Source: Pseudonocardia sp. TRM90224
GTDB taxonomy: Bacteria; Actinomycetota; Actinomycetes; Mycobacteriales; Pseudonocardiaceae
DNA: 64,000 bases
NCBI RefSeq assembly: GCF_021245725.1
Contig: NZ_JAJGSX010000008.1
Span: 186,001 to 250,000, forward strand
Reading direction: 5' to 3'
Shown: one piece after another, positions 28,345 through 42,473 of the stretch
How the letters are laid out: every line of letters begins with the position of its first letter
Position numbering within the stretch: the stretch's first letter is position 1
Translations under genes and position numbers: made by a program
Notes under the pieces: model-generated
What the model saw: only the letters and a program-made list of their open reading frames with translations
Told to the model about the DNA's origin: nothing
Database searches by the model: none

Positions 28345-29823
28345 TCAGGCTCCGCCGGAGAGCTTCTCCCGCAGCGCCGCGAGCTGCTCGTCGCTGGCGA
28401 GCGAGCCGCCCGACTCCGCGGGGGCGCCGCCGCCGGGCGTCGAGGAGTAGCTGGTGCCGGTGGCACCCTCGACGGCCGCCTCGGCCTCCGCCTCCGCAGC
28501 CTTCTTGAGCTGCGTGATGTGCTGCTCGAAGCGGGTGTGCGCCTCCGCGTACTGGCGCTCCCACTCCTCGCGCTGGGCCTCGAAGCCCTCCTGCCAGTCG
28601 CCGGTCTCGACGTCGAAGCCCTCGGGGTAGATGTAGTTCCCCTGGTCGTCGTACTCGGCCGCCATGCCGTAGCGGGTGGGGTCGAACTCGGTGTCGACCG
28701 TCATGCCCTCGTTGGCCTGCTTCAGCGACAGCGAGATGCGGCGCCGGTCGAGATCGATGTCGATGACCTTGACCATTGCGTCGTCGCCGACCTGCACGAC
28801 CTGCTCCGGGATCTCCACGTGGCGCTCGGCCAGCTCGGAGATGTGCACCAGGCCCTCGATGCCCTCCTCGACGCGGACGAACGCGCCGAAGGGAACGAGC
28901 TTGGTGACCTTGCCCGGCACGATCTGGCCGATCGCGTGGGTGCGGGCGTACAGGCGCCACGGGTCTTCCTGCGTCGCCTTGAGCGACAGGGAGACGCGCT
29001 CGCGGTCGAGGTCGACGTCGAGGACCTCGACGGTGACCTCCTGGCCGACCTCGACGACCTCGCTGGGGTGGTCGATGTGCTTCCAGGACAGCTCGGAGAC
29101 GTGCACCAGGCCGTCGACGCCACCGAGGTCGACGAACGCACCGAAGTTGACCACCGAGGACACGACGCCCTTGCGCACCTGGCCGCGGGCCAGCTGGTTG
29201 AGGAACTCGCTGCGGACCTCGGACTGGGTCTGCTCCAGCCACGCGCGGCGGGACAGGACCACGTTGTTGCGGTTCTTGTCCAGCTCGATGATCTTGGCCT
29301 CGATCTTGCGGCCGACGTAGGGCTGCAGGTCGCGGACGCGACGCATCTCGACCAGCGAGGCGGGCAGGAAGCCGCGCAGGCCGATGTCCAGGATCAGGCC
29401 GCCCTTGACGACCTCGATGACCGTGCCCTCGACGGGCTCGTCGGCCTCCTTGAGGGCCTCGATCGTGCCCCAGGCGCGCTCGTACTGCGCGCGCTTCTTG
29501 GACAGGATCAGGCGGCCTTCCTTGTCCTCCTTCTGGAGGACGAGGGCCTCTACGTGCTCCCCGACCGACACGACCTCAGCAGGGTCGACATCGTGCTTGA
29601 TCGAGAGTTCCCGAGAGGGGATGACACCCTCGGTCTTGTAGCCGATGTCGAGCAGGACCTCGTCACGGTCGACCTTGACGATGGTGCCCTCGACGATGTC
29701 GCCATCGTTGAAGTACTTGATCGTCTGGTCGATGGCGGCGAGGAAGTCCTCCTCCGACCCGATGTCGTTGACGGCGACCTGCGGGGTCGAGTGGGTCGGG
29801 GCGGCGGTGGTGTCGGTGGACAT
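28345..29823 (-). CDS. rpsA: 30S ribosomal protein S1
   Basis: S1 helps the ribosome bind and unwind mRNA. The 492-aa product carries four S1 OB-fold repeats beginning near residues 42 (GDIVEGTIVKVDRDEVLLDI), 125, 210 and 295, the usual actinobacterial number against six in E. coli. The C-terminal about 110 residues are acidic and Ala/Gly-rich, without S1 folds. It has its own terminator, and the neighbouring coaE and uvrB on the same strand match mycobacterial order. Confidence 0.97.
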   Translation of the reverse strand: MSTDTTAAPTHSTPQVAVNDIGSEEDFLAAIDQTIKYFNDGDIVEGTIVKVDRDEVLLDIGYKTEGVIPSRELSIKHDVDPAEVVSVGEHVEALVLQKEDKEGRLILSKKRAQYERAWGTIEALKEADEPVEGTVIEVVKGGLILDIGLRGFLPASLVEMRRVRDLQPYVGRKIEAKIIELDKNRNNVVLSRRAWLEQTQSEVRSEFLNQLARGQVRKGVVSSVVNFGAFVDLGGVDGLVHVSELSWKHIDHPSEVVEVGQEVTVEVLDVDLDRERVSLSLKATQEDPWRLYARTHAIGQIVPGKVTKLVPFGAFVRVEEGIEGLVHISELAERHVEIPEQVVQVGDDAMVKVIDIDLDRRRISLSLKQANEGMTVDTEFDPTRYGMAAEYDDQGNYIYPEGFDVETGDWQEGFEAQREEWERQYAEAHTRFEQHITQLKKAAEAEAEAAVEGATGTSYSSTPGGGAPAESGGSLASDEQLAALREKLSGGA

Positions 29824-30055
29824 GTAGTGGGGTGCTCCGGTGATGGATGGTTTGGTGGTGCTTGCCTGGTGGTGTGTGTCTCGTGACGTGGTGCTGTCAC
29901 CCTTGCTCGTGGATCATGAAAGGTGGTCGGGCGAAGCGCGCGATGAGAACCCGCGACGTTGACCACAATGCGATTACCATGCTACGCGGGCACGGATCAC
30001 CAGGGCAACGCGGGTACCCCCGGCTCAGCTGCCGATATGCCGCCACGATGGCACC
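29824..30055. promoter_or_regulatory. Divergent promoter region of rpsA and a methyltransferase gene
   Basis: This 232-base stretch separates two divergent starts and must contain both promoters. A lower-GC patch around 29955-29985 is the likeliest core. I cannot assign exact -35/-10 boxes. No gene is seen here. Confidence 0.4.
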
Positions 30056-30874
30056 GTGAGCGCTGAGGAGCAACTGGGCACCGCCGGAGTGGCGCGACGC
30101 GACGTCGGGACGGCCGAGTCGCAGCGCGCCAGCCGCATGTGGTGGGACGCCGATGCCGACGACTACCTGGCAGAACACGGCCGCGACATCGGCGACTCCG
30201 ACTTCGTCTGGTGCCCGGAAGGGCTGCGCGAATCCGACGCGCGACTGCTCGGCGACGTCGAGGGCGCGCAGGTGCTCGAGGTGGGTTGCGGCTCGGCGCC
30301 GTGCGCGCGCTGGCTCGCCGCGCAGGGCGCCCGTCCGGTGGCGCTGGACCTCTCCGGTGCCATGCTCCGCCACGCCGCCGCGCTCGGGATCACCACCGGG
30401 ATCCCGGTGCCACTGGTGCAGGCCGGCGCCGAGCGGCTGCCGTTCGGCGACGCCGTGTTCGACGTCGCGTGCTCCGCGTTCGGCGCCGTCCCGTTCGTCG
30501 CCGAGCCGCTGCGGGTGATGAGAGAGGTGCACCGGGTGCTGCGGCCGGGCGGGCGGTGGGTGTTCGCGGTGAACCACCCGATGCGCTGGATGTTCTCCGA
30601 CGACCCCGGCCCCGCCGGGCTCACCGTGCAGCAGTCGTACTTCGACCGCACCCCGTACGTCGAGGTCGACGGCACCGGCACCGCCACCTACGTCGAGCAC
30701 CACCGCACGCTCGGCGACCGGGTCCGTGACGTCGTCGCGGCCGGGCTGGTGCTGGAGGACGTGGTGGAGCCGGAGTGGCCGGAGGGCCGCGAGCGGATCT
30801 GGGGCCAGTGGTCGCCGCTGCGCGGTGCGCTGTTCCCCGGCACAGCGATCTTCGCCTGCCGCAAGCCGGGCTAG
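30056..30874 (+). CDS. Class I SAM-dependent methyltransferase
   Basis: This 272-aa cytoplasmic protein has the Rossmann-like methyltransferase core: motif I VLEVGCGSAPCARWLA near residue 78, the acidic strand ARPVALDLSGAML, the motif ERLPFGDAVFDVACSAFGAVPFV, and the later VLRPGGRWVFAVNHP. The N-terminal MWWDADADDYLAEHGRD segment is common in actinobacterial ubiE-like methyltransferases. The substrate is unknown. The start is GTG at 30056. Its TAG stop is the first triplet of a family D palindrome. Confidence 0.9.
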   Translation: MSAEEQLGTAGVARRDVGTAESQRASRMWWDADADDYLAEHGRDIGDSDFVWCPEGLRESDARLLGDVEGAQVLEVGCGSAPCARWLAAQGARPVALDLSGAMLRHAAALGITTGIPVPLVQAGAERLPFGDAVFDVACSAFGAVPFVAEPLRVMREVHRVLRPGGRWVFAVNHPMRWMFSDDPGPAGLTVQQSYFDRTPYVEVDGTGTATYVEHHRTLGDRVRDVVAAGLVLEDVVEPEWPEGRERIWGQWSPLRGALFPGTAIFACRKPG

Positions 30875-30934
30875 GAGCGCCCTGAACAACTGGGACCTAC
30901 TGCGCGGCGGCCCCAGTCGTTCAGGACCCTCCTA
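30872..30934. repeat. Palindrome family D, copy 1
   Basis: Arms 30872-30894 and 30912-30934 pair over 23 bp with three mismatches around a 17-base loop starting ACCTACTGCGCG. The element begins with the methyltransferase stop codon. The second copy, at 58146, has the same arms and loop start but a loop about 104 bases longer. Confidence 0.88.
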
Positions 30935-30955
30935 GGGCCACGGTCTGGGCGCCGA

Positions 30956-31023
30956 ACTTCCCCACCGTTTTGCCGACCTGCACACCGTTTCGGGGGTGCG
31001 AGTAGGCAAAACGGTGGGGAAGT
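30956..31023. repeat. Palindrome family B, copy 2
   Basis: Arms 30956-30983 and 30996-31023 (28 bases, a few mismatches) carry the family core CTTCCCCACCGTTTTG. It lies 21 bases after a family D element, so two unrelated palindromes share one short gap upstream of the thioesterase gene. Confidence 0.9.
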
Positions 31024-31045
31024 CCGCGGCGGTTAGGGTCTGCGG

Positions 31046-31462
31046 GTGCCGATCGATCCCGCTGACCTGATCACGCCCGACACCCCGGAGCAGCTCGCCG
31101 ACCGGATGGGCATCGAGCTGCTGAAGCTCTCGCACGACGAGGTGGTCGGCCGGATGCCGGTCGCGGGCAACCGGCAGCCGTTCGGGCTGCTGCACGGCGG
31201 GGCGAGCGCGGTGCTCGCGGAGACGCTCGGATCGACGATGTCGGCGCTGCACGCGCTGCCCGAACGGTTCCCCGTGGGGCTCGAACTGGCCTGCACGCAC
31301 CACCGATCGGCGACGGAGGGGTTCGTCACCGGTGTCGCCCGCCCCCTGCACGTCGGTCGCACGACGTCGACGACCGAGATCGTGATCACCGACGAGCAGG
31401 GGCGCCGCACCTGCACCGCGAAGCTCACGTGCCTCCACCGCGACACCAAGCCCGAGGTCTGA
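31046..31462 (+). CDS. PaaI-type hotdog thioesterase
   Basis: This 138-aa protein has the hotdog fold of acyl-CoA thioesterases: MPVAGNRQPFGLLHGGASAVLAETLGS, where the HGG and the following acidic residue form the active site, then LELACTHHRSATEGFVTGVARPLHVGRTT. PaaI and YbgC relatives hydrolyse aryl- or acyl-CoA. The start is GTG at 31046, right after a family B palindrome. It is convergent with the first kinase gene. Confidence 0.92.
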   Translation: MPIDPADLITPDTPEQLADRMGIELLKLSHDEVVGRMPVAGNRQPFGLLHGGASAVLAETLGSTMSALHALPERFPVGLELACTHHRSATEGFVTGVARPLHVGRTTSTTEIVITDEQGRRTCTAKLTCLHRDTKPEV

Positions 31463-31474
31463 GATCGGTTCGGG

Positions 31475-33646
31475 TCAGTTCGGGATGAGCGCGACCTCGC
31501 TGTAGAACCCGTCGTTGCGCAGCCGGAAGACCATGAGCTGCCGGTCCCGGAGATCACCGAACTCGTCGAAGGCGACGCGACCCGACGCCCCGAGCAGATC
31601 TGTCTTCTGCACGGCCTCGACGAGCTCCGCCCGCCGGTGCGGTCCCCACCCGCCGGTCGAGAGCACCTTCGCCAGCGCCGCGATCAGCGCGTTCGTCGCG
31701 TCGTAGCTGTAGATGTCGTAATCAGAGATCGGCTCTCCGAAGCCTTCGTCCGCGTACGCCTGGAGGAACGCCACGGAGCGTTCGGGGTACGTCTCCGCGC
31801 GCGGGTACGTGCCGAGATCGTCGGGGCGACCGCCGAGGGCGATGAACCGGTCGCTGACGATGCCCTCGCCGCCCATCAGGGGCGCCTTCACCCCCGCAGC
31901 TCCGAGCTGCTTCGACAGCGGGCCCGCCTCCGTCTCCGGCCCACCGAAGTACACGAGTTCCGGGCCGGCTGCCGCGATGGCGGCGACGAGGGCCGAGAAG
32001 TCGGTGGTCCCCCGCTGGATCCGCTCCCGCATGACGATGGTCGCGCCGTTGCGGGTGACCCGGTCGGCGAACGTGGACGCCAGCCGCGAGCCGAAGGCCT
32101 CGCCGTCGTCGACGACCGCGACGGACTTCACCATCATGAAGTCCGCTGCGTACTGGCCTGCGGCCAGGCCCTGGTCGCTGTCGCGGGCGCCCACCCTGAA
32201 GTAGTTCCGGTAGGGCCGCTGCGGAGTCGCGCCCCCGCCCCTGGTCATCTCGTCCGGCCCGCTGCTGGGTGACAGGTGCACGATGCCCGCCGGGTTCAGC
32301 ACACCTTGCACAGCGCGACCGGTGAACGAGTCCAGCGCCCCGATGACGCCGACGACACCGGTCTGCACGAGCGTGGTCGCCGCGGCCGCTGCCCGGCCCT
32401 CGTCCGACGTGTCGTCCATCGGGTTGAGCCGCAGGTCGTAGCCCGGAACGCGACAGGTCCGGTTCGCCTGCCGGACGGCGAGCTCCGCGGCCTGCCGCGT
32501 GCCCACGCCCCAGTTGACGAGTTCGCCGGACAACGGTCCGACGAAGCCGATGCTCAGTTCCCCCTTGCTGGTGTCGCACGGCTCGGTCGGTTCGGACGAG
32601 GGGGCAGCCGCCGGCGCCGCTCCGTCGTTCGAATCGGTCACGCCGGGCCGGTTCACGATGACGAGCGTCGTGACGAGCACGGCGGCCAGCACGAGGGCAG
32701 TTGCGACGAGCAGTCCTCGGCGCGACCGGCGCGAGGGCGGGACAGGCGGCGGTTGCCATGGCGGCGCGGGCGTCCTGATGGGCTCCGCGCTGCGGACCGC
32801 GACGGGCCCTGCCATCAGCGAGCTCAGCTCCTGCACCGCCGCGGTCGCGGGCGGGCGTCGCGCGGGGTCGGGGTCGAGCATCCGCATCATCGGGCCGGTC
32901 AGCGGCCCGGAGCGGACCGGCGGCTCGATCTTGCCCTCTGCCGTCCTGCGCAGCAGGAGCAGCAGGTTCCCGTCGACGAGCTGACCGAACGGCGCGCCGC
33001 CCTCGACCGCGGTGTAGAGGGTCGCCCCCAATCCGAAAACGTCGGACGCCGCCGTCGCATCCTCACCGTTGGCCACCTCCGGCGCGAGGTAGGTCGGGGT
33101 GCCGACGAGCATCCCGGACGCGGTGAGCGACAGGTCGCCGACCACCCGGGAGATCCCGAAATCCGTCAACTTCACCTCACCCGTCCCGCCCAGCAGCACG
33201 TTCGCCGGCTTCACGTCGCGGTGCACGATCCCGCCGGCGTGCGCAGCCGCGAGCGCGGCGGCCACCCCCGTGCCGATCCGGGCGACCTCGAACGGATCCA
33301 GCGTGCGCCGCTCCTTCAGCACGTCGTCGAGGCTGCGGGAGGGCACATACTCCAGCACCAGCCACGGCTCGCCGTCCTCGACGATCACGTCGAAGATCGA
33401 GACGACGTTCGGGTGGTGCAACCGCGCCGCCGCCCGGGCCTCCCGCATCACCCGCGACCGCGTCCCCTCCGCCGCCGCCGGTTCGAGCGCGAACAACCGC
33501 ACCTGCTTCAACGCCACGGTGCGCCCGAGCAGCTCGTCGACAGCGACGTACACCGTGCCCATCCCGCCGGCACCGATCCGCTCACCCAGGCGGTACCGGC
33601 CGGCGACCCTGCGGCCAGCGCCCGAAATGCCCCCCATTTCGTTCAC
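31475..33646 (-). CDS. Transmembrane Ser/Thr kinase with LivJ-like sensor domain
   Basis: This 723-aa protein has an intact Hanks-type kinase (residues about 18-275: GAGGMGTVY glycine loop, catalytic Lys in VALKQV, HRDVKPANVL, DFGISR, APEVANGEDATAASDVFGLG), a Pro-rich linker, one membrane segment near 312-335 and a complete type I periplasmic-binding domain (about 365-723, beginning CDTSKGELSIGFVGPLSG). That domain is closely similar to the LivK-type protein encoded 8 kb away, including its CDTSKG start and YFGGPETEAGPLSKQLG motif. The topology puts the kinase inside and the amino-acid-like sensor outside. A later ATG (fourth codon) is also possible. Confidence 0.93.
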   Translation of the reverse strand: MNEMGGISGAGRRVAGRYRLGERIGAGGMGTVYVAVDELLGRTVALKQVRLFALEPAAAEGTRSRVMREARAAARLHHPNVVSIFDVIVEDGEPWLVLEYVPSRSLDDVLKERRTLDPFEVARIGTGVAAALAAAHAGGIVHRDVKPANVLLGGTGEVKLTDFGISRVVGDLSLTASGMLVGTPTYLAPEVANGEDATAASDVFGLGATLYTAVEGGAPFGQLVDGNLLLLLRRTAEGKIEPPVRSGPLTGPMMRMLDPDPARRPPATAAVQELSSLMAGPVAVRSAEPIRTPAPPWQPPPVPPSRRSRRGLLVATALVLAAVLVTTLVIVNRPGVTDSNDGAAPAAAPSSEPTEPCDTSKGELSIGFVGPLSGELVNWGVGTRQAAELAVRQANRTCRVPGYDLRLNPMDDTSDEGRAAAAATTLVQTGVVGVIGALDSFTGRAVQGVLNPAGIVHLSPSSGPDEMTRGGGATPQRPYRNYFRVGARDSDQGLAAGQYAADFMMVKSVAVVDDGEAFGSRLASTFADRVTRNGATIVMRERIQRGTTDFSALVAAIAAAGPELVYFGGPETEAGPLSKQLGAAGVKAPLMGGEGIVSDRFIALGGRPDDLGTYPRAETYPERSVAFLQAYADEGFGEPISDYDIYSYDATNALIAALAKVLSTGGWGPHRRAELVEAVQKTDLLGASGRVAFDEFGDLRDRQLMVFRLRNDGFYSEVALIPN

Positions 33647-33693
33647 CCGGGCATCCCATCACCGAACGGTGGGGACCCCTCCCCCTGGGTGCC

Positions 33694-34935
33694 TCAACGA
33701 GGAGACAGCGCCGCTCGGGGGACGAACGCGGCCGCCTCGACCACGTAGATCGTGACGGCCTGGTTGCGGACGTCGCCGAACTCGTCGAAGGCCAGCGGAC
33801 CCGTCGCGCCCGGTTGGTCGGTCCGCTGCACCTCGTCGACGAGCTCGGCACGACGGTGCGCGGACCAGTCGCCGCTGGCGAGCACCCGATGCAGCGCTGC
33901 GACCAGCACCTGCGCCGCGTCGTACCCGTACGGGCCGTGGGACGTGGGCGGGCCGAGCCCGGTGGCCGCGTAGGCGGCGAGGAACGGGGCCGCCCCGGGC
34001 AGCATCGCGACGGGCACCCGTGGGCTCGTGACCAGGTCGCCCTCCCGGCCGCCGAGCGCGACGAACTCCTTGTCGGCGACGAGGTGTCCGCCCATCACCG
34101 GCGGCGCCACCCCGGCGGGGCCGAGCTGTGCCGACAGCGGCCCCGCGGTCGCCGAGTCGCCGCCGCAGAACACGAGGTCGGGCCGCGACTCGGCGATCTT
34201 CGCGATCAGCGGGCTGTAGTCGCGGGCGTCGGGCGCGACCTGCTCGCGCGCGACGATGCCCGCACCCAGCTCGGCGGCGCGGTCGGCGAACGACGAGACC
34301 AGCTGCGTGCCGTAGCCGCTGCCGTCGTGCACGACCGCGATGGACCGCTTCCCGAGGTCGATCACGGCGTGCTCGGCGGCGACCGTGGCCTGGCGGGTGT
34401 CGGTCGCGCTCAGCCGGAAGTAGCCGCGGTACGGGCGGCGCGGCACCTGCCCGTCGCCGCGGGTCAGGTCGTCGGCGCGGTTGCTCGGCGAGATCTGGAC
34501 GATGTCGAGCGGCCCGAGCACGGACTGGGCGACCCGCCCGGTGTCCGACTCGAAGGTCCCGATCACACCGACGAGCGCCGGCTGGGCCGCGAGGTTCTTC
34601 GCCGCGGAGTGCGCCTTCGCCGGCGTCGACGTGTCGTCGGCCACGGTGAGGGTGAGCCGGTAGCCGGGGATCCGGCACGCCGCGTTCGCCTCGTCGACGG
34701 CCAGTTGGACCGCGTTGCGGATCCCGGTGCCTTCGGCCGCACGCGGCCCCGTCAGCGGCATGATCAGCCCGATGGTCAGCTCGCCCTTGCCCGTCTCACA
34801 CGGCACTGCAGGGGCGAGCGCGGACGGGATCGTGGCGCCGGGTGCGGCCGGCTCCTCGGCGGCCCACGCCCCGCCGAGGATCACGGCGGTCGTCAGCAGG
34901 GCGGCGACGAGCGCCACCGACAGCCCGACGAGCAC
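33694..34935 (-). CDS. LivJ-like sensor half of the second kinase, out of frame
   Basis: This frame encodes a membrane segment (VLVGLSVALVAALLTTAVIL) and a type I periplasmic-binding domain beginning CETGKGELTIGLIMPLTG, similar to the sensor of the neighbouring kinase and to the LivK-type protein. It is offset by -1 from the kinase frame (34893-35876), and the two overlap in the Gly/Arg-rich linker. A GTG at 34935 could start it as a separate membrane-anchored binding protein, or the pair may be one gene with a 1-base deletion, a sequencing error, or a programmed slip. The domain itself is intact and reads to its normal end. Confidence 0.72.
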   Translation of the reverse strand: MLVGLSVALVAALLTTAVILGGAWAAEEPAAPGATIPSALAPAVPCETGKGELTIGLIMPLTGPRAAEGTGIRNAVQLAVDEANAACRIPGYRLTLTVADDTSTPAKAHSAAKNLAAQPALVGVIGTFESDTGRVAQSVLGPLDIVQISPSNRADDLTRGDGQVPRRPYRGYFRLSATDTRQATVAAEHAVIDLGKRSIAVVHDGSGYGTQLVSSFADRAAELGAGIVAREQVAPDARDYSPLIAKIAESRPDLVFCGGDSATAGPLSAQLGPAGVAPPVMGGHLVADKEFVALGGREGDLVTSPRVPVAMLPGAAPFLAAYAATGLGPPTSHGPYGYDAAQVLVAALHRVLASGDWSAHRRAELVDEVQRTDQPGATGPLAFDEFGDVRNQAVTIYVVEAAAFVPRAALSPR

Positions 34936-35876
34936 TCCGCGGCGGCGCCGGCGGCGCCCTGCCTGACGCCCGGCCGACGGGCGCCGGACCGGACGGGGGC
35001 GGCCGGGATCGGGCCGGCCAGCACCTCCGTCGGCGCGTCCTGCCGCTCGACCAGCTCGGAGAGCGCCTCGACGGCCGCGGCGGCCGAGAACCGTTTCGCC
35101 GGGTCCGTCTCCAGGAGCCTCGCCAGCGGCCCACCCAGTGGCCCGGCCCGCACCGCGGGGTGCACAGCGCCGCGGGCCACCCGGCCGAGCAGCCCCGGCA
35201 GGCCGGTCTCGTCGACGGTGCCGAACGGCGGCGCGCCCTCGACGGCCTTGTACAGCGTCGCGCCGAGCGCGAACACGTCCGACGCCGCGCCGGCGGCGAT
35301 CCCGCGCGCCACCTCGGGAGCGAGGTAGGCGGGGGTGCCGACCAGCGCGTCGGACGAGACCATCGAGCCGTCGCCGGCCACGCGTGCGATGCCGAAGTCG
35401 GTCAGCTTCGCCACGCCGTCGTCGCCGATCAGGACGTTCGCGGGCTTGACGTCGCGGTGCACGATGTCGACCGCGTGCGCCGCGGCGAGCGCCGCGGCGA
35501 TGTCCCTGCCGACCCGGGCCGCGGTGAGCGGGTCGAGCAGGCCGTCCTCGACCAGCACGCGGTCGAGGGTTCGGGAGGGCACGTACTCCAGCACGAGCCA
35601 AGGTTCGTCACGCTCGACGACGACGTCGAAGATCGAGACGACGTTGGGGTGGTGCAGGCGGGCGGCCGCCTGGCCCTCCAGCATCACGCGTCGACGGGCC
35701 TGCGCGGCGCCCACCGGACCGAGCCCGGTGAGCCGGAGCTGCTTCACCGCAACGGTGCGCTCCAGCAGCTCGTCGGTCGCGCGGAAGACGACACCCATGC
35801 CGCCGGCGCCGATCGGCGCGACCACGCGATAGCGGCCCGCGAGCACACGCCCGACGGGACCCGGCATGCCGTCCAC
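34893..35876 (-). CDS. Ser/Thr kinase domain of the second kinase-sensor gene
   Basis: This 327-aa frame encodes a complete Hanks-type kinase: GAGGMGVVFRATDE, catalytic Lys in VAVKQLRL, HRDVKPANVLIGDD, DFGIARVAGDG, and APEVARGIAAGAASDVFALG. All catalytic residues are present. After about residue 295 the frame runs into a low-complexity tail and stops at 34893, whereas the paralogue at 31475-33646 continues into a membrane segment and sensor. If translated as is, the kinase would be soluble. It lies just downstream of the liv operon terminator on the same strand. Confidence 0.85.
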   Translation of the reverse strand: MDGMPGPVGRVLAGRYRVVAPIGAGGMGVVFRATDELLERTVAVKQLRLTGLGPVGAAQARRRVMLEGQAAARLHHPNVVSIFDVVVERDEPWLVLEYVPSRTLDRVLVEDGLLDPLTAARVGRDIAAALAAAHAVDIVHRDVKPANVLIGDDGVAKLTDFGIARVAGDGSMVSSDALVGTPAYLAPEVARGIAAGAASDVFALGATLYKAVEGAPPFGTVDETGLPGLLGRVARGAVHPAVRAGPLGGPLARLLETDPAKRFSAAAAVEALSELVERQDAPTEVLAGPIPAAPVRSGARRPGVRQGAAGAAAECSSGCRWRSSPPC

Positions 35877-35911
35877 CGGGCCAACTCTGCCATGCCCGGA
35901 TCAACGGAAAA

Positions 35912-35951
35912 GACGCCCTGACCTGGGCTTCATTGACCAGGTCAGGGCGTC
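35912..35951 (-). terminator. Rho-independent terminator of the liv operon
   Basis: A perfect 15-bp stem (35912-35926 with 35937-35951, core GACGCCCTGACCTGG) has a 10-base loop and, in the minus direction, is followed by TCTTTTCC. It begins 16 bases after the livF stop and ends 35 bases before the start of the kinase gene. Any readthrough would therefore feed the kinase genes. Confidence 0.93.
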
Positions 35952-35967
35952 CCACCGTCTCCTTCGG

Positions 35968-36690
35968 TCAGCTCGCGACACCCTCGCCGAGGTAGGCCTC
36001 CTGCACGCGATGATCCGCGAGCAGCTCGTGCCCCGTGCCCGACAGCGTCGTCCGGCCGAGGTCGATCACGTAGGCGTGATCGGAGAGGGCGAGCGCGGCC
36101 AGCGCGTTCTGCTCGACGAGAAGCACCGTGGTGCCCTCGCTCTGCAGCTCGCGGACCGTGGAGAAGATCTTCTGGGTCATGATCGGCGAGAGCCCCATGG
36201 ACGGCTCGTCGAGCATGAGCAGCTTCGGGCGCGACATGAGCGCCCGCCCGATCGCGAGCATCTGCTGCTCGCCACCGGAGAACAGGCCCGCCTTGTTGCG
36301 CCGCCGCTCCCCCAGCACCGGGAACAGGTCGTAGACGCGGTCGATGTCCTCGCGGATCCCGGCCTCGTCCGTGCGGGTGTAGGCGCCGAGGCGGAGGTTC
36401 TCCTCGACGGTCATCCGCGCGAACAACCTGCGCCCCTCGGGGCTGTGCGCGACGCCCAACCCGAGGATCTCGTGCGCCGGCAGCTGGTGGATCGGCTTGC
36501 CGTTGAGCAGCACCTCACCCGACACCGGGCGCAGCAGCCCCGAGATCGTGCGCAACGTGGTGGTCTTGCCCGCCCCGTTGCTCCCGATCAGGCTGACGAT
36601 CTGGCCCTGCTCGACGGTGAAGGTGACACCCCGAACGGCCTGGATGGCGCCGTAGGCGACGGTCAGGTCGCGAACTTCCAGGAACGTCAT
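35968..36690 (-). CDS. livF: Branched-chain amino-acid ABC transporter, ATPase LivF
   Basis: This 240-aa ATPase is the second nucleotide-binding subunit of the LIV-type importer. It has Walker A GSNGAGKTTTLRTISG, the signature LFSGGEQQMLAIGRALM, Walker B LLMLDEPSMGLSP and the LivF-type AHSPEGRRLFARMTVEENL segment. Its start overlaps livG by ATGA, and it is the last gene before the operon terminator. The family imports Leu/Ile/Val, but also urea or short amides, so substrate identity is inferred. Confidence 0.96.
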   Translation of the reverse strand: MTFLEVRDLTVAYGAIQAVRGVTFTVEQGQIVSLIGSNGAGKTTTLRTISGLLRPVSGEVLLNGKPIHQLPAHEILGLGVAHSPEGRRLFARMTVEENLRLGAYTRTDEAGIREDIDRVYDLFPVLGERRRNKAGLFSGGEQQMLAIGRALMSRPKLLMLDEPSMGLSPIMTQKIFSTVRELQSEGTTVLLVEQNALAALALSDHAYVIDLGRTTLSGTGHELLADHRVQEAYLGEGVAS

Positions 36691-37598
36691 CGGTGGTTCT
36701 CCCCTTCGTCCTCCGCGGCGTGGATCTGGGCGTCGACCTCGTCGGGCGGAGCACCCAGGTACGCCTCGACGACACGGGGGTCGCCACGCACCTCGTCCGG
36801 GCTGCCCTCGACGAGCAGCTCGCCCTGCACCAGCACCAGCACCCGGTCGCAGAGGGTGAAGATGAACTTCGTGTCGTGCTCGATGACGACGACCGAGATC
36901 CCGAGGTCGCGGATCGCGAAGATCAGCTGTCGGGTGGCCTCGGTCTCCTGCGCGTTCATCCCGGCCGTCGGCTCGTCGAGCAGCAGCACCGCCGGGTCGG
37001 TCGCCAGGGCCCTGGCGATCTCGAGGCGGCGCTGGTCGCCGTAGGGCAGGTTGCGCGCCAGCTCGCCGGCGAACTGGCTGAGCCCGACGAACGCCAGCAG
37101 CTTCTCGGTGCGCTCGGCCGCTTCGGCCTCGCTGCGCCGGAAGCTCGGCCCGTGCAGGAGCGACGACAGCGGGCTCTGCTTCATCCGCACGTGCCGTCCG
37201 ACCATCACGTTCTCCGCCGCGGTCATGCTCGGGAAGAGTCGGATGTTCTGGAACGTGCGGGCGACACCCTGCTCGGTCACCCGGGCCGGGTCCTGCGGCA
37301 TCGGGTTGCCGCGCAGGGAGACCGCCCCGGACGTGGGCGCGTAGAGCCCGGTCAGGCAGTTGAACAGGGTGGTCTTGCCGGCCCCGTTCGGCCCGATCAG
37401 GCCGATGATCTCGCCCTCGCTCAGGCCGAACGAGACGTCGTTGAGCGCGCGGAGACCGCCGAACTGCATCGTCACGCCGGACGCCTGCAGGATCGTCGAG
37501 CCGCTCGCGGAGCCGCCCGCGACCATGGGGATCGCCGTCGTCACGTCGCTCTCGTTCCCCGTGCCGTTCATGTCGGGCCTCGCGTGCCGCCCGCTCAT
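36687..37598 (-). CDS. livG: Branched-chain amino-acid ABC transporter, ATPase LivG
   Basis: This 303-aa ATPase has Walker A GPNGAGKTTLFNCLTG, the signature-like LPYGDQRRLEIARALAT typical of LivG (in place of LSGGQ), Walker B VLLLDEPTAGMN and the LivG C-terminal VLVQGELLVEGSPDEVRGDPRVVEAYLG. The ATG at 37598 is set by the ATGA overlap with livM and gives an N-terminal extension of about 40 residues; a start at MVAGGSASGS is also conceivable. Confidence 0.96.
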   Translation of the reverse strand: MSGRHARPDMNGTGNESDVTTAIPMVAGGSASGSTILQASGVTMQFGGLRALNDVSFGLSEGEIIGLIGPNGAGKTTLFNCLTGLYAPTSGAVSLRGNPMPQDPARVTEQGVARTFQNIRLFPSMTAAENVMVGRHVRMKQSPLSSLLHGPSFRRSEAEAAERTEKLLAFVGLSQFAGELARNLPYGDQRRLEIARALATDPAVLLLDEPTAGMNAQETEATRQLIFAIRDLGISVVVIEHDTKFIFTLCDRVLVLVQGELLVEGSPDEVRGDPRVVEAYLGAPPDEVDAQIHAAEDEGENHR

Positions 37599-39364
37599 GT
37601 GGCCGCCGCCTTCACCGTCGTGCCGCCTGCCGGACCGTCATCGGGATGGTCCGGTGGCGCCTCGCTCTCCGGTGCGAGCTCCGCCCTGCGGTGCGCGTCG
37701 GGCACGAGACCCTGCGGCCGGAACCGCATGATCAGCACGAGCGCGAGACCGAAGAGAAGCAGCCGGTAGTCGGCGAACTCCCGCAGCTTCTCCGGCAGCA
37801 CGAACAGGACGGAGGCGCCGAGCACCGCACCCGGGATCGTGCCCATGCCACCGAGGATGACCGCGGCGAGCAGGGTGACCGACTCCAGGAACCGGAAGCT
37901 CTCGTACGACGCCGTGCCCAGCTTGTGCGCGAAGAACGCGCCCGCGAACCCGGCCAGCATGGCGCCGATGAGGAACGCCAGGATCTTGATCGGGCCGGTG
38001 CGGATGCCCATCGCGCGAGCGGCGTCCTCGTCCTCGCGGATCGCGATCCAGGCCCGGCCCAGCCGCGAGTTCTTGAGGTTGCCGAACACCCACATGACCG
38101 CCGCGACGATCAGGACGATCAGGACGTAGTACAGGACACCGGACGGCAGGTTCAACGCACCGATGGTGACCGACTCGTTGAAGCCCTTGCCGAACAGCTC
38201 GACCGGCGGGATGTTCGGGATCGAGTTGGACCCGCCCGTCAGCCCGCCGATGTTGTTCTGCGCGCTGCGCACGAAGATCTCACCGAACGCAAGCGTCACG
38301 ATCGCGAGGTAGTCGCCGCGCACCCGCAGCGTCGGCGACCCGACCACCGCGCCGAAGCAACCCGCGACCACCGCGGCGATCACCAGCACCAGCGGGAACG
38401 GCAGCTCGATCCCGACCACGGACGCCGCTGCGCCCGACAGGTTCGCCGCGACGAACGCGCCGATGCCGAGGAACGCGACGTAGCCGAGGTCGAGCAGGCC
38501 GGCCAGCCCGACGACGATGTTCAGCCCGATCGCGGTGGCGGCGTAGACGCCGATGTTGGCCGCGACCGTCATCCAGTACTCGGTGCCGGCCGACGTCAGC
38601 GGCAGCGCGAGCGCCGCCAGCAGCAGCACGATCACGCTGTAGATCCGGTGCCGCTCGGACATCCGCGCGATCCAGCCCAGCAGGCCGGAGGCGTGGAGAC
38701 CGGCGATCGCGCCACCGACCGCGCCGAGGAACGACAGGAAGACCGCACCCGAGAACGGGTTGGCCGCGCCGCCCTGGCCACCGCTGGTGAGCACCGCCGC
38801 GACCAGCAGCAGCACGATCGCGTAGGCGACGAGCAGGATCAGCCACTCGACCACCCGGCCGAGCTTCAGGTCCCAGTGGGTGGGCGGGTCGATGCCGCCC
38901 GCCGTCGCGCCGACCACGAGCACCACACCGCCGACGAGCGCGACGAACGCGCCGAACGCGGCCGTGCCGTCCGACGCCGTGATGGCGCCGAAGCCGCCGC
39001 CCTCGACGGTGATGTAGAGCCCGTTGACGATGCTGATGGCGATGACGCCCCAGCCGAACCCGCGCACGATCCGGCCCTTGGCCGCCACGGGTACCAACGC
39101 GACCACGATGGACGCGAGGCCGAGCAGCACCAGGTGCAGCCGGAACCCGCTCACCCCGAACGGCTCGCTGAAGAACTCCAGCGTGGCGCCCTCGGGGTAG
39201 GGCCCGTCGTTGAGCACGAACGTCGCCCACGGCAGGAATGCGCCGACGAGCGTCAGCACACCGCCCACGATCCGCAGCACGCTGGTGTACGGGGCGAGCG
39301 CCGCAAGCCTGCCGCGCGGCGGTTCCGCGAGCGCCTGCGACGGCGCCTTCTCGATCGTCGTCAT
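37595..39364 (-). CDS. livM: Branched-chain amino-acid ABC transporter, permease LivM with N-terminal extension
   Basis: The C-terminal about 330 residues are a standard LivM permease, with ANIGVYAATAIGLNIVVGLAGLLDLG, SPTLRVRGDYLAIVTLAFGEI, the cytoplasmic EAA-like RAWIAIREDEDAARAMGI and the final FRPQGLVPD. An N-terminal extension of about 250 residues adds several membrane segments, making 589 aa. E. coli LivM is shorter; long forms are known in actinobacteria. The ATG at 39364 overlaps the livH stop as ATGA. Confidence 0.94.
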   Translation of the reverse strand: MTTIEKAPSQALAEPPRGRLAALAPYTSVLRIVGGVLTLVGAFLPWATFVLNDGPYPEGATLEFFSEPFGVSGFRLHLVLLGLASIVVALVPVAAKGRIVRGFGWGVIAISIVNGLYITVEGGGFGAITASDGTAAFGAFVALVGGVVLVVGATAGGIDPPTHWDLKLGRVVEWLILLVAYAIVLLLVAAVLTSGGQGGAANPFSGAVFLSFLGAVGGAIAGLHASGLLGWIARMSERHRIYSVIVLLLAALALPLTSAGTEYWMTVAANIGVYAATAIGLNIVVGLAGLLDLGYVAFLGIGAFVAANLSGAAASVVGIELPFPLVLVIAAVVAGCFGAVVGSPTLRVRGDYLAIVTLAFGEIFVRSAQNNIGGLTGGSNSIPNIPPVELFGKGFNESVTIGALNLPSGVLYYVLIVLIVAAVMWVFGNLKNSRLGRAWIAIREDEDAARAMGIRTGPIKILAFLIGAMLAGFAGAFFAHKLGTASYESFRFLESVTLLAAVILGGMGTIPGAVLGASVLFVLPEKLREFADYRLLLFGLALVLIMRFRPQGLVPDAHRRAELAPESEAPPDHPDDGPAGGTTVKAAAT

Positions 39365-40293
39365 GCCCGCACCCTCTCGGTCTCGCCGAAGAAGCCCTGC
39401 GGCCGGAAGACCAGCACCACGATGAGCACGACGAAGATCCACACGTAGTCGTACGCGCTGCCACCTGGCATGTACTGGCCGGCCAACGACTTGATCAGGC
39501 CGATCGCGAGCCCGCCGACGACGGCACCGCGGATGTTGCCGATGCCGCCGAGCACGGCGGCAGTGAAGGCGAAGATGCCGTTCTGGAAGCCGATGTCGAT
39601 GTTGATGTTGGTGTAGAAGCCGCCGTACAGCACTCCGCCGATGCCGGCGAGCAACGCGCCGAGCGCGAAGGTGAGCACGATGACGCGGTCGGGGTTGATC
39701 CCCATCAGCCGCGCGACGTCCCGGTCCTGGGACGTTGCGCGCATCGCCCGGCCCATCCGCGAGCGCTCGACGAACATGTTGAGCGCGTAGGCCAGCACGA
39801 GCGCGACGACGACGAGCAGGATGCCGGAGTACTTGATCGGGACGACGCCGTCGCCGACCGAGATCGTCCAGGTGCCGGGGATGAAGATGTTCGGGAACGG
39901 GATCGCCGCGGTCGCGCCCGGGTAGAACACCCGGATGACCTCCTGCAGCGCGATCGAGACACCCAGCGAGGTGATCAGCGGGGCGAGCTTCGGTGCGTTG
40001 CGCAGAGGTCGGTAGGCGAACCGCTCCATCGCGACGGCGACCCCGACCGAGACGACGGCGCCGGCGATCAGCAGCAGCGGCAACGCGAAGTACCACTGCT
40101 GCTGGATGAAGGTGGGGAGCAAGTACGTGAACATCGCCAGCGCCCCGTAGGCGCCGACCATGAAGACCTCGCCGTGGGCGAAGTTGATGAGCTGGATGAT
40201 CCCGTAGACCATCGTGTAGCCCAGTGCGATCAACCCGATCAGGGAGCCCAGCACCAGACCGTTGACTATCTGCGATAGCAGCGTGGACAGCAA
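39361..40293 (-). CDS. livH: Branched-chain amino-acid ABC transporter, permease LivH
   Basis: This 310-aa permease has eight or so membrane segments and the LivH hallmarks GLVLGSLIGLIALGYTMVYGIIQLINFAHGEVFM near the N-terminus, RAMRATSQDRDVARLMGINPD in the cytoplasmic coupling loop and a C-terminal VFRPQGFFGE. It pairs with LivM to form the channel. It is separated from the upstream binding-protein gene by 76 bases containing a stable hairpin. Confidence 0.96.
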   Translation of the reverse strand: MLSTLLSQIVNGLVLGSLIGLIALGYTMVYGIIQLINFAHGEVFMVGAYGALAMFTYLLPTFIQQQWYFALPLLLIAGAVVSVGVAVAMERFAYRPLRNAPKLAPLITSLGVSIALQEVIRVFYPGATAAIPFPNIFIPGTWTISVGDGVVPIKYSGILLVVVALVLAYALNMFVERSRMGRAMRATSQDRDVARLMGINPDRVIVLTFALGALLAGIGGVLYGGFYTNINIDIGFQNGIFAFTAAVLGGIGNIRGAVVGGLAIGLIKSLAGQYMPGGSAYDYVWIFVVLIVVLVFRPQGFFGETERVRA

Positions 40294-40314
40294 GTGGGTG
40301 GTCCTTCCACGAGC

Positions 40315-40345
40315 GCTGGGGGCGAGGTGTTCCCCCGCCCCCAGC
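40315..40345 (-). terminator. Attenuating hairpin between binding-protein gene and livH
   Basis: A perfect 10-bp GC-rich stem (GCTGGGGGCG at 40315-40324, CGCCCCCAGC at 40336-40345) lies between the binding-protein stop and the livH start. Such hairpins commonly stabilise or partly terminate the upstream message so that binding protein is made in excess over the permeases. Confidence 0.8.
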
Positions 40346-40369
40346 CTTGTGTGTCGTTCGTGATGAAGG

Positions 40370-41608
40370 TCAGCCCTCGAAGCTGCCGGTGGTTCCCTCG
40401 ACGGGCTCGAACTTGTCCGTCTTGACCTCGTACACCGTCAGCACCTTGTTGGTGGTGTCGCCGTACTGGTCGAACGCGATCGGACCGCCCGCACCCTGCG
40501 TGTTGGTGGCCTGGACCGCCTTGACGATCTCGGCCCGGGTGGCGTCGGAGTAGGCGCCGCTGCCGAGCGCCTTCGCCGTCGCCTGGATGATCACGTTGGT
40601 CGCGTCGTAGGTGAACGCGCCGTACGCGCTGTAGCCCTCCGCGTAGTTGCCCGCCTTGTAGTCGGCGATGAACTGAGTCGCGCTGGGCAGCTTCTCCGCC
40701 GGGGCGCCGACGTTGGTGGCGAGGTCGCCGGGCTTGCCGCCGAGCGAGACGAACTTGGCATCCACGATGCCGTCGCCGCCCATCACCGGGATGTCGAGGC
40801 CGTTCTCCTTGAGCTGCTTCGACAGCGGGCCGGCGACCGGGTACTCACCGCCGTAGTAGACGGCGTCCGGGTTGAGGCCACGGATCTTGGTGATGACACC
40901 GGCGAAGTCGGTGTCCTTCTCGCCGACCTTCTCCTGCGCGACGACGGTCGCGCCGAGCTTCGTGGCCTGCTTGGCGAACTCGGCCGCGAGGCCCGCGCCG
41001 TACGACTTGCCGTCGTCGATCACCGCGATGTTCTTCTTGCCGGCCTTCTGTACCAGGTAGTTCGCCGCGAACGGGCCCTGGATGAGGTCGGTGGTGGCCA
41101 CCCGGAAGTAGCTGTCGACAACGCGCTTCGGCGCGTTGATCGGGTCGGCACCCAGCGTCAGGCCGGGACCGGTGTTCGCCGGGGAGATCTGCACGATCTT
41201 CTTCGCGGCGAACGTCGGCTGCACGACCTGCGACGTCGAGGTGTTGAGCGTCCCGACGACGCCGATGACGTTGGCGTCGGAGGCGAGCTTGGTGGCCGCC
41301 TGACCCGCGATCTGCGGGTTCGCCTGGTCGTCCTCGGCCTGGAAGACCAGCTTGTAGCCCGGCACGGTGCACTTGGCGTTGGCCTGGTCCACAGCGAGGT
41401 CGGCCGAGTTGCGCATGCCGAGGCCGAGCTCGGACAGGCCGCCCGACAAGGGCGCCACCATGCCGATGGTCAGTGTGCCCTTGCTGGTGTCACATGACGC
41501 CGCGCCGCCACCGGATCCCGGCGCCTCTTCGCGGTTCGTTCCGCACGCCGTGAGCCCGAGAGCTCCGGCGAGAATCGCGGCGGTGACGATCGTCCGCCTC
41601 CGAGTCAT
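40370..41608 (-). CDS. livK: LivJ/LivK-type branched-chain amino-acid binding lipoprotein
   Basis: This 412-aa lipoprotein has a signal peptide ending in LGLTAC, giving a lipidated Cys at residue 22, and a type I periplasmic-binding domain: CDTSKGTLTIGMVAPLSGG, GTLNTSTSQVVQP, IVQISPANTGPGL, NIAVIDDGKSYGAGLA and VYYGGEYPVAGPLSKQLK. It captures the substrate for the LivHMGF importer. The ATG at 41608 follows GGAAGGA by 8 bases. The sensor domains of both kinases downstream of the operon are its close homologues, so they probably arose by duplication of this gene. Confidence 0.95.
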   Translation of the reverse strand: MTRRRTIVTAAILAGALGLTACGTNREEAPGSGGGAASCDTSKGTLTIGMVAPLSGGLSELGLGMRNSADLAVDQANAKCTVPGYKLVFQAEDDQANPQIAGQAATKLASDANVIGVVGTLNTSTSQVVQPTFAAKKIVQISPANTGPGLTLGADPINAPKRVVDSYFRVATTDLIQGPFAANYLVQKAGKKNIAVIDDGKSYGAGLAAEFAKQATKLGATVVAQEKVGEKDTDFAGVITKIRGLNPDAVYYGGEYPVAGPLSKQLKENGLDIPVMGGDGIVDAKFVSLGGKPGDLATNVGAPAEKLPSATQFIADYKAGNYAEGYSAYGAFTYDATNVIIQATAKALGSGAYSDATRAEIVKAVQATNTQGAGGPIAFDQYGDTTNKVLTVYEVKTDKFEPVEGTTGSFEG

Positions 41609-41837
41609 GCTGTAGTCCTTCCCATACCGCGTTTCCCGGGGGTGCCCGATCACGCCCGAACCCTCTCGCCTGTCGAGAGCGTGGCGGACGTTAGGCGACA
41701 CTGCGCGGTTGCGTCACCATCCGGCACCGCCTCTTTACCGGACCGCAACCCGGGAACTGCGCTTCGTGATCGAACCGACAGCGCAGGGTGAGAAAAACGG
41801 CATGGACCGTTCGTGATGCTCAGCACTTCTCAAGACG
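41609..41837. promoter_or_regulatory. Promoter region of the liv operon
   Basis: This 229-base gap lies between the ANTAR regulator stop and the binding-protein start, both genes being on the minus strand. It must hold the liv promoter and probably the pdtaR transcript end. No gene is seen. ANTAR proteins bind paired RNA hairpins in leaders, but I could not assign such a pair with confidence. Confidence 0.35.
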
Positions 41838-42473
41838 TCAGGACTTCGGCGCGGCCAACCCGTCGACGACCGCCTCCGCGACGGCCTTCATCGTCGTGCG
41901 CCGATCCATCGCGGTGCGCTGGATCCAGCGGAACGCGTCGGGCTCGGTCATGTTCTGCCGCGACATGAGCAGGCCCTTCGCCCGGTCGACGACCTTGCGG
42001 GTCTCCAACCGGTCGGTCAGCGTCGCGACCTCGTCCTCGAGCGCGCGCTTCTCGGCGAACCGGGAGACGGCCAGCTCGATCGCGGGCACGAGCTCGTGGC
42101 GGGCGAACGGCTTCACCAGGTAGGCCATCGCGCCGGCGTCACGAGCCTGCTCGATCAGCTCCCGCTGGCTGAAGGCGGTGAGCACGACGACGGGGGCGAT
42201 GCGCTCGCCGACGATCGTCGTCGCCGCGGTGATGCCGTCGACCTTCGGCATCTTGACGTCCATGATCACGAGGTCGGGCTGCAGCGAACGGGCGAGCTCG
42301 ATGGCCTGCTCGCCGTCGCCGGCCTCGCCCGCGACGACGTAACCCTCCTCGGTCAACATCTCGGTGAGGTCGAGACGGATGAGCGCCTCGTCCTCGACGA
42401 CCAGCACCCGCAGCCCGGCGGCTGTCGCGCCCTCGCTCGCGTTCGTGCTCTCCTCGGAAACCTGCTGGGTCAC
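41838..42473 (-). CDS. pdtaR: ANTAR-domain response regulator PdtaR
   Basis: This 211-aa protein joins a receiver domain (residues about 20-140, with acidic pocket VVEDEAL, phosphoacceptor Asp in DLVIMDVKMP, Thr in VLTAFS and Lys in YLVKPF) to a C-terminal ANTAR RNA-binding domain (LETRKVVDRAKGLLMSRQNMTE...AFRWIQRTAMDRR). PdtaR is phosphorylated by PdtaS and acts by antitermination or RNA binding. Its place upstream of rpsA/coaE/uvrB on the same strand follows mycobacterial order. Confidence 0.95.
   Translation of the reverse strand: MTQQVSEESTNASEGATAAGLRVLVVEDEALIRLDLTEMLTEEGYVVAGEAGDGEQAIELARSLQPDLVIMDVKMPKVDGITAATTIVGERIAPVVVLTAFSQRELIEQARDAGAMAYLVKPFARHELVPAIELAVSRFAEKRALEDEVATLTDRLETRKVVDRAKGLLMSRQNMTEPDAFRWIQRTAMDRRTTMKAVAEAVVDGLAAPKS

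Follow-up and report, generated by a model that had tools for sequence, protein, structure and literature searches.

In a 64-kb stretch of the genome of Pseudonocardia sp. TRM90224 (hereafter the window, part of contig C92 in a 113-contig draft assembly of 9.38 Mb), two genes, STK-A and STK-B, join a Hanks-type serine/threonine kinase (STK) to a sensor domain of the LivK family. They lie behind the genes of a liv importer, Pfam and NCBIfam profiles giving the minus-strand order livK, livH, livM, livG, livF, then STK-B, then STK-A. We favour, as reasonably likely, the reading that they form a tandem pair of receptor kinases, in which a single fusion gene of this lineage was duplicated beyond the terminator of the liv operon and the ligand pockets diverged from that of the transporter LivK. 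The parts of the two genes are as follows.

31475..33646, minus strand: STK-A, an intact predicted receptor kinase of 723 aa (PF00069 E 6e-47, PF13458 E 2e-44)
32831-33595, minus strand: STK-A kinase domain, residues 18-272
32654-32716, minus strand: STK-A membrane helix, residues 311-331, a hydrophobic segment after RRSRR
31478-32584, minus strand: STK-A sensor, a full-length PF13458 match with pocket residues D78, G102 and E226
34893..35876, minus strand: STK-B kinase half (PF00069 E 4e-45; HRDVKPAN, DFG), whose frame closes just ahead of the helix
34870..34938, minus strand: STK-B membrane helix, a hydrophobic run that follows RRRRR, read in the frame ending at 33694 and not in the kinase frame
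33694..34806, minus strand: STK-B sensor half, LivK-type (Peripla_BP_6 E 4e-47), with altered pocket residues E78, R102 and H226

Kinase, Pro/Arg-rich linker, membrane helix and sensor of STK-A all lie within one open frame, and the positive-inside charge at the helix suggests that the sensor should face outward. Both kinases match PF00069 far above its cut-off of 31.7 bits (160.7 bits for STK-A and 154.8 bits for STK-B) and carry the Lys, HRD and DFG motifs, as judged by eye; the two sensors reach 153 and 162 bits with Peripla_BP_6 (cut-off 31.7). Structure prediction was applied to the STK-A sensor only: the AlphaFold model, built with 30 sequences, has a predicted local distance difference test score (pLDDT) of 92.8, and its best solved match in Foldseek is 4n0q, a leucine complex, with template modelling (TM) scores of 0.80/0.86. 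Given this structural match and the Peripla_BP_6 E-value of 2e-44, the kinship of the sensor to the LivK family is far beyond chance. The more specific LivK-like model PRK15404 scores 156.8 for STK-A, 112.5 for STK-B and 155.2 for the neighbouring LivK, all under its curated cut-off of 477, which separates none of the three since the neighbouring LivK itself falls below it. Chance overlap of open reading frames as the origin of the fusions is ruled out by the decisive profiles and the fold. Genome-wide, there are 63 Pkinase and 13 Peripla_BP_6 matches, and their coordinates place both in one gene at STK-A and STK-B only.

The first-pass annotation of this DNA had described a complete liv importer operon with two same-strand genes behind it, each joining a kinase to a binding domain. 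All five liv genes are indeed present on the minus strand and both downstream genes carry a kinase and a PF13458 domain, but only STK-A is a single intact frame. As to the motifs that it had listed as shared, C-D/E-T-x-K-G-x-L at the sensor start and GPLS[AK]QL were recovered in all three translations, the G following QL being confined to the two kinases.

According to the reading that we favour, STK-A and STK-B would be tandem single-pass receptor Ser/Thr kinases, each with a cytoplasmic Hanks kinase, a Pro/Arg-rich juxtamembrane linker, a helix and an outer LivK-family domain. One fusion gene would have arisen or arrived in this Pseudonocardia lineage and then been duplicated in tandem, the pair being placed just past the terminator of a vertically inherited liv operon. 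If the two lobes of the sensor close on a small ligand, dimer geometry might change across the membrane, and the altered geometry would in turn switch autophosphorylation of the kinase.

The two genes are sisters in both of their halves, with support of 100/99 and 47% identity for the sensors and support of 100/99 and 63% identity for the kinases. Sensor trees were computed on 38 and 36 rows, chosen from 117 distinct segments and the Streptomyces fusions described below, and kinase trees on 56, 59 and 64 rows, with loci taken from two four-genome searches that represent a part of the kinases of those genomes. Sensors A and B together appear to group with Pseudonocardia LivKs (92/71 in the 38-row tree and 88/91 in the 36-row tree), without decisive support.

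The pocket was then compared with that of known binding proteins. Docking places the ligand contacts of LivJ at residues 18, 77, 78, 79, 100, 101, 102, 103, 150, 202 and 276 (PMC6983066). As a reference we used 34 LivKs, which define 67 invariant columns. STK-A is changed at all four invariant docking-contact columns (p 0.0018), and at five of five when position 226 is included (p 3e-4); for STK-B the corresponding figures are two of four (p 0.084) and three of five (p 0.015). The LivK-invariant residues N78, T102 and D226 are replaced by D, G and E in sensor A and by E, R and H in sensor B. Five fusion sensors from other genera are changed at 0 or 1 contact columns and keep N78, T102 and D226. 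The set of residues by which LivK contacts amino acids is not retained whole in sensor A or sensor B. Ser79 is present in both (the neighbouring LivK has Thr there), and an acid at 226 persists in A alone, as Glu, like in E. coli LivJ, where B has His226. Because Ser79 and the acid at 226 are kept, STK-A might yet accept a ligand resembling an amino acid, with altered specificity, whereas Arg102 and His226 make the usual mode of binding a zwitterionic amino acid unlikely for STK-B.

STK-B is not one open frame: its kinase frame stops at 34893, and the helix and sensor are read in another. Codon-position guanine plus cytosine content is coding-like in both halves and locates the frame switch within about 34.89-35.04 kb. 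The data fit sequencing error, decay and a real split alike, and the frameshifted STK-B may be decaying or split. A decaying STK-B pseudogene beside a solely functional STK-A, with altered residues that reflect relaxed selection and not new specificity, is an unlikely explanation but the one among the alternatives that we take most seriously. It would account for the frameshift between kinase and membrane helix, for R102 and H226 in the pocket of STK-B and for the fast evolution of the sensors; it fits poorly with the coding composition retained in both halves and with the preserved kinase motifs; moreover, a small indel of this kind, in a GC-rich linker of a 113-contig draft assembly, could be an artefact of sequencing.

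The relation of the pair to the liv genes depends on the boundary between them and on the neighbourhood, the relevant features of which are listed here.

35908..35953, minus strand: hairpin with T-run between livF and STK-B (free energy, dG, -41.8 kcal/mol for a 68-nt stretch, z -6.5, 0/200 shuffles as good)
35968..36690, minus strand: livF ATPase, final operon gene (LivF E 2e-78, under cut-off)
36687..37598, minus strand: livG ATPase (LivG E 5e-86, under cut-off)
37595..39364, minus strand: livM permease (BPD_transp_2 E 3e-43; LivM PRK11301 E 1e-73, under cut-off)
39361..40293, minus strand: livH permease (BPD_transp_2 E 9e-48)
40370..41608, minus strand: livK, type I binding protein (Peripla_BP_6 E 1e-49; LivK-like PRK15404 E 2e-45, under curated cut-off), its product start lipoprotein-like as judged by eye
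41838..42473, minus strand: ANTAR response regulator (Pfam Response_reg and ANTAR), presumably PdtaR-like, adjoining livK upstream here and likewise in syntenic loci of the genus
30056..30874, plus strand: methyltransferase (Methyltransf_11), the next conserved gene past livF in syntenic relatives
28345..29823, minus strand: ribosomal protein S1 gene rpsA (four S1 stretches), the conserved downstream anchor by synteny

The NCBIfam liv models matched by the operon proteins all score below their own curated cut-offs. The hairpin at 35908..35953 is the probable transcription terminator of the liv operon and lies upstream of both kinases, which are probably not co-transcribed with liv; its place between livF and STK-B speaks against a single operon of liv genes and kinases. 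Ten loci of the genus (L074, L160-L162, L164, L166, L168, L172, L173 and L176) share the order found at 28345-42473 in the window, that is PdtaR-like regulator, livKHMGF, methyltransferase and rpsA; at L163 and L165 there is no methyltransferase within the stretch covered, and L169-L171 and L177 are without these neighbours. The distance from livF to the methyltransferase is 5092 nt in the window and 594-3983 nt in the ten syntenic loci, and no remnant of a kinase or sensor was detected in the intervals of the ten by tblastn at E<0.05 (best E 0.058). In five of the ten, folding is strongest 0-25 nt beyond livF, a figure obtained without shuffle control. Because the syntenic intervals hold no STK remnant and hairpins occur past livF, the kinase pair has the look of an insertion downstream of a pre-existing end of the operon. 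On the hairpin and the synteny, we did not take a single liv-kinase operon to be the likeliest reading.

Several observations weigh against the favoured reading. The window sensors are long branches of odd composition on which their placement rests, and tree searches missed better trees, the quick sensor trees being replaced by careful ones on subsets. In the pocket comparison, Glu226 of LivJ was counted as a ligand contact on our own assumption and stands outside the docking list, and the 34 reference LivKs were selected from among 117 sensor-like segments. With 90%-conserved columns instead of 100%-conserved ones, the values become p 0.069 for A (0.027 with 226) and p 0.25 for B (0.12 with 226), and because the enrichment fades in this way, generally fast divergence could account for much of it. 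At the boundary, the hairpin at 35908..35953 was unlisted by a simple terminator scan, read-through past it is possible, and the position of the kinases beside liv could still matter.

The first-pass annotation had proposed that the binding-protein gene was duplicated and fused to a kinase. In its full form, with the neighbouring livK as the source and both receptors reporting the branched-chain amino acids of the operon within one regulatory unit, this scenario appears improbable to us. The same-strand adjacency and the LivK-type sensors agree with it, as does the failure to reject a clade of sensors A and B with the neighbouring LivK (p-AU, from the approximately unbiased test, 0.557), the best tree being 1.76 log units above the free tree; STK-A moreover resembles E. 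coli LivJ in retaining S79 and an acidic residue at 226. Against it stand the altered pockets of both sensors and the hairpin between livF and STK-B. A grouping of the STK-A sensor with LivK that excludes B is marginally rejected (p-AU 0.0489), and the neighbouring LivK is 78% identical to an orthologue and only 41% to sensor A. Such comparisons neither demonstrate nor rule out that the sensors descend from this particular livK; membership of the sensors in the LivK family stands, and direct duplication is left unproven by the long branches, the identities and the marginal rejection. The accompanying claim, that the receptors read the ligand class that the operon imports, finds no support in a pocket whose residues are partly lost (N78, T102 and D226 changed, Ser79 and the acid at 226 kept in A), least of all for STK-B.

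Linkage in related genomes, which the same annotation had suggested as a check, was not recovered either. Among 71 loci with LivK and LivF, the window included, the other 70 yielded one kinase-like hit (L177, 75 bits), upstream of LivK and on the opposite strand, and no kinase-sensor gene when STK-B was used as kinase query at >=60 bits. An earlier count on 67 loci gave the same result; at five of these less than 3 kb is available downstream of livF. Kinase-LivK fusions found elsewhere showed no liv genes in the flanks examined, which extend up to about 8 kb at L158/L159, 5-7 kb at L267-L269 and 2-5 kb at L296-L301. A separate arrangement was observed at L270-L280 in an actinobacterial family (f32), where LivK-like genes lie on both sides of a PdtaR-like regulator gene, one of the two matching mainly query residues 13-280.

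The searches for fusions give lower bounds. With STK-A as query, no match spanning both domains other than STK-A itself was listed in 60 genomes of the genus and order. Among the hits listed at >=40% identity in 62 genomes of the genus, frames longer than 600 aa were limited to the window pair and two others (G033 and G063), the latter without kinase. The family search (249 genomes, 8 candidates scored in each) added two fusions, L158 and L159, both in one other genus, where they are the only long-frame cases among hits of >50% identity in 16 genomes (2/16), five low-identity rows with frames >600 aa having been left out. At class level (296 genomes, 6 candidates scored in each), 3 of the 18 regions examined hold fusions (L267-L269); their genus was taken as Streptomyces, the DNA of L266 and L283 being 84-88% identical to Streptomyces loci. 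Among 101 Streptomyces genomes, seven rows are at least 61% identical to the L267 sensor, six of which are confirmed fusions, the seventh lying at a contig edge. Another Streptomyces fusion, L301 (2992-6069, plus strand), has a LivK-type sensor 53% identical to that of L267. At L284-L295, chosen for long frames at 25-32% identity from a longer list, all 12 Streptomyces loci hold two adjacent kinase-containing frames, with a sensor match of at least 35 bits in one frame or both at 10/12, and both of two tandem proteins checked matched Pfam kinase and Peripla_BP_6. Long frames without kinase on inspection were those of G033, G063, G469, G494, G324, the second G489 locus, 11 f32 loci and L302; left out of this inspection were G126 (28%), G650 and several f32 and low-identity rows. 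In plasmids, tblastn returned no record in which a single place spans 80% of either STK-A or L267.

Agreement in domain order between the window pair and the fusions of another Pseudonocardiaceae genus (L158, L159) and of Streptomyces (L267-L269, L296-L301) might suggest a single old family of kinase-LivK receptors, inherited vertically or spread, with the window pair as a divergent branch. Two tests lean that way: the four Pseudonocardiaceae fusion sensors are not rejected as a single clade (p-AU 0.359), and a clade of kinases A/B with the Streptomyces LivK-fusion kinases is merely borderline (p-AU 0.054). We nonetheless consider such a family highly improbable, for uniting kinases A/B with those of L158/L159 costs 194 log units and is rejected, and so are a clade of sensors A and B with the Streptomyces fusion sensors (p-AU 4.6e-5) and one of all seven (2.6e-4); on these kinase and sensor tests, one ancestral fusion for all cases was set aside. 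One kinase clade of A/B and four Streptomyces tandem-family kinases was likewise rejected by a tree test. The Streptomyces fusion sensors nest among Streptomyces LivKs. A clade of the L301 kinase with the other Streptomyces LivK-fusion kinases is rejected (1.1e-6). The L301 kinase groups with the tandem-family kinases (100/100) and its sensor is LivK-type, which looks like a sensor swap. As the fusions sit on kinases of different subfamilies and, in the flanks examined, away from liv genes, they point to repeated recruitment, and several independent fusions or domain swaps would be the simplest reading, finer claims being limited by long branches and composition. A real and functional break in STK-B, leaving the kinase unattached and the membrane-anchored sensor with a start of its own, the two acting separately or being united by frameshifting, can be discounted almost entirely, for although coding-like halves flank the break and a GTG seen in the sequence opens the hydrophobic run, STK-A and the fusions examined elsewhere are all single-frame, no split relative was found and there was no orthologue in which to seek a conserved frameshift signal.

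If the tandem-pair reading is extended beyond the window, we would propose, tentatively and with less confidence than the reading itself, that Actinobacteria built LivK-type receptor kinases several times independently and that the window pair was retuned away from the transporter ligand, with one compound imported and a different one sensed by adjacent genes. Which stimuli activate bacterial protein kinases is described as an outstanding question (PMC6069109). When the sensor of a kinase comes from a nutrient-binding family that is well understood, and the changes in its pocket can be identified, a short list of ligand candidates follows, and the repeated fusions offer a natural experiment in which LivK-like pockets (second genus, Streptomyces) can be set against altered ones (window).

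Several known or related systems can be compared with the window pair. In PknG-GlnX-GlnH of Mycobacterium and Corynebacterium, an outside amino-acid-binding protein controls an inside Ser/Thr kinase (PMC6069109, PMC9769921). That system divides its functions among a separate lipoprotein, GlnH, a membrane protein, GlnX, and the kinase PknG, whereas STK-A is one fused protein. GlnH is also a different type of binding protein from LivK. E. coli LivJ and LivK, which are proteins of transport systems, and the Brucella Leu/Ile/Val-binding homologue 4n0q share fold and overall sequence with the sensor but differ from A and/or B at residues 78, 101, 102 and 226. The L158/L159 fusions resemble the window pair in domain order, with sensors 42% and 39% identical to sensor A, and differ from it in having a kinase of another subfamily and contact columns as in LivK. 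Judged by title, no description of a kinase-binding-protein fusion was found among the papers listed from open-licence literature, and we do not claim its absence from print; such proteins presumably carry the NCBI name 'bifunctional serine/threonine-protein kinase/ABC transporter substrate-binding protein'. The Streptomyces LivK fusions (L267-L269, L296-L300 and L301) resemble STK-A in uniting a Hanks kinase and a type I binding domain in one polypeptide, and the Streptomyces tandem kinase-Peripla_BP_6 genes (L284-L295) resemble the window pair in both fused architecture and tandem arrangement. Unlike A and B, the Streptomyces LivK-type sensors keep N78, N101, T102 and D226 in the three tested, and H150 in two; the flanks examined are without liv genes, and the kinases differ from A/B, the tandem family being rejected and the LivK-fusion kinases borderline as one clade with them. 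The kinase-LivK architecture itself is not new and recurs in Actinobacteria, and within the genomes examined the window pair is specific to its lineage.

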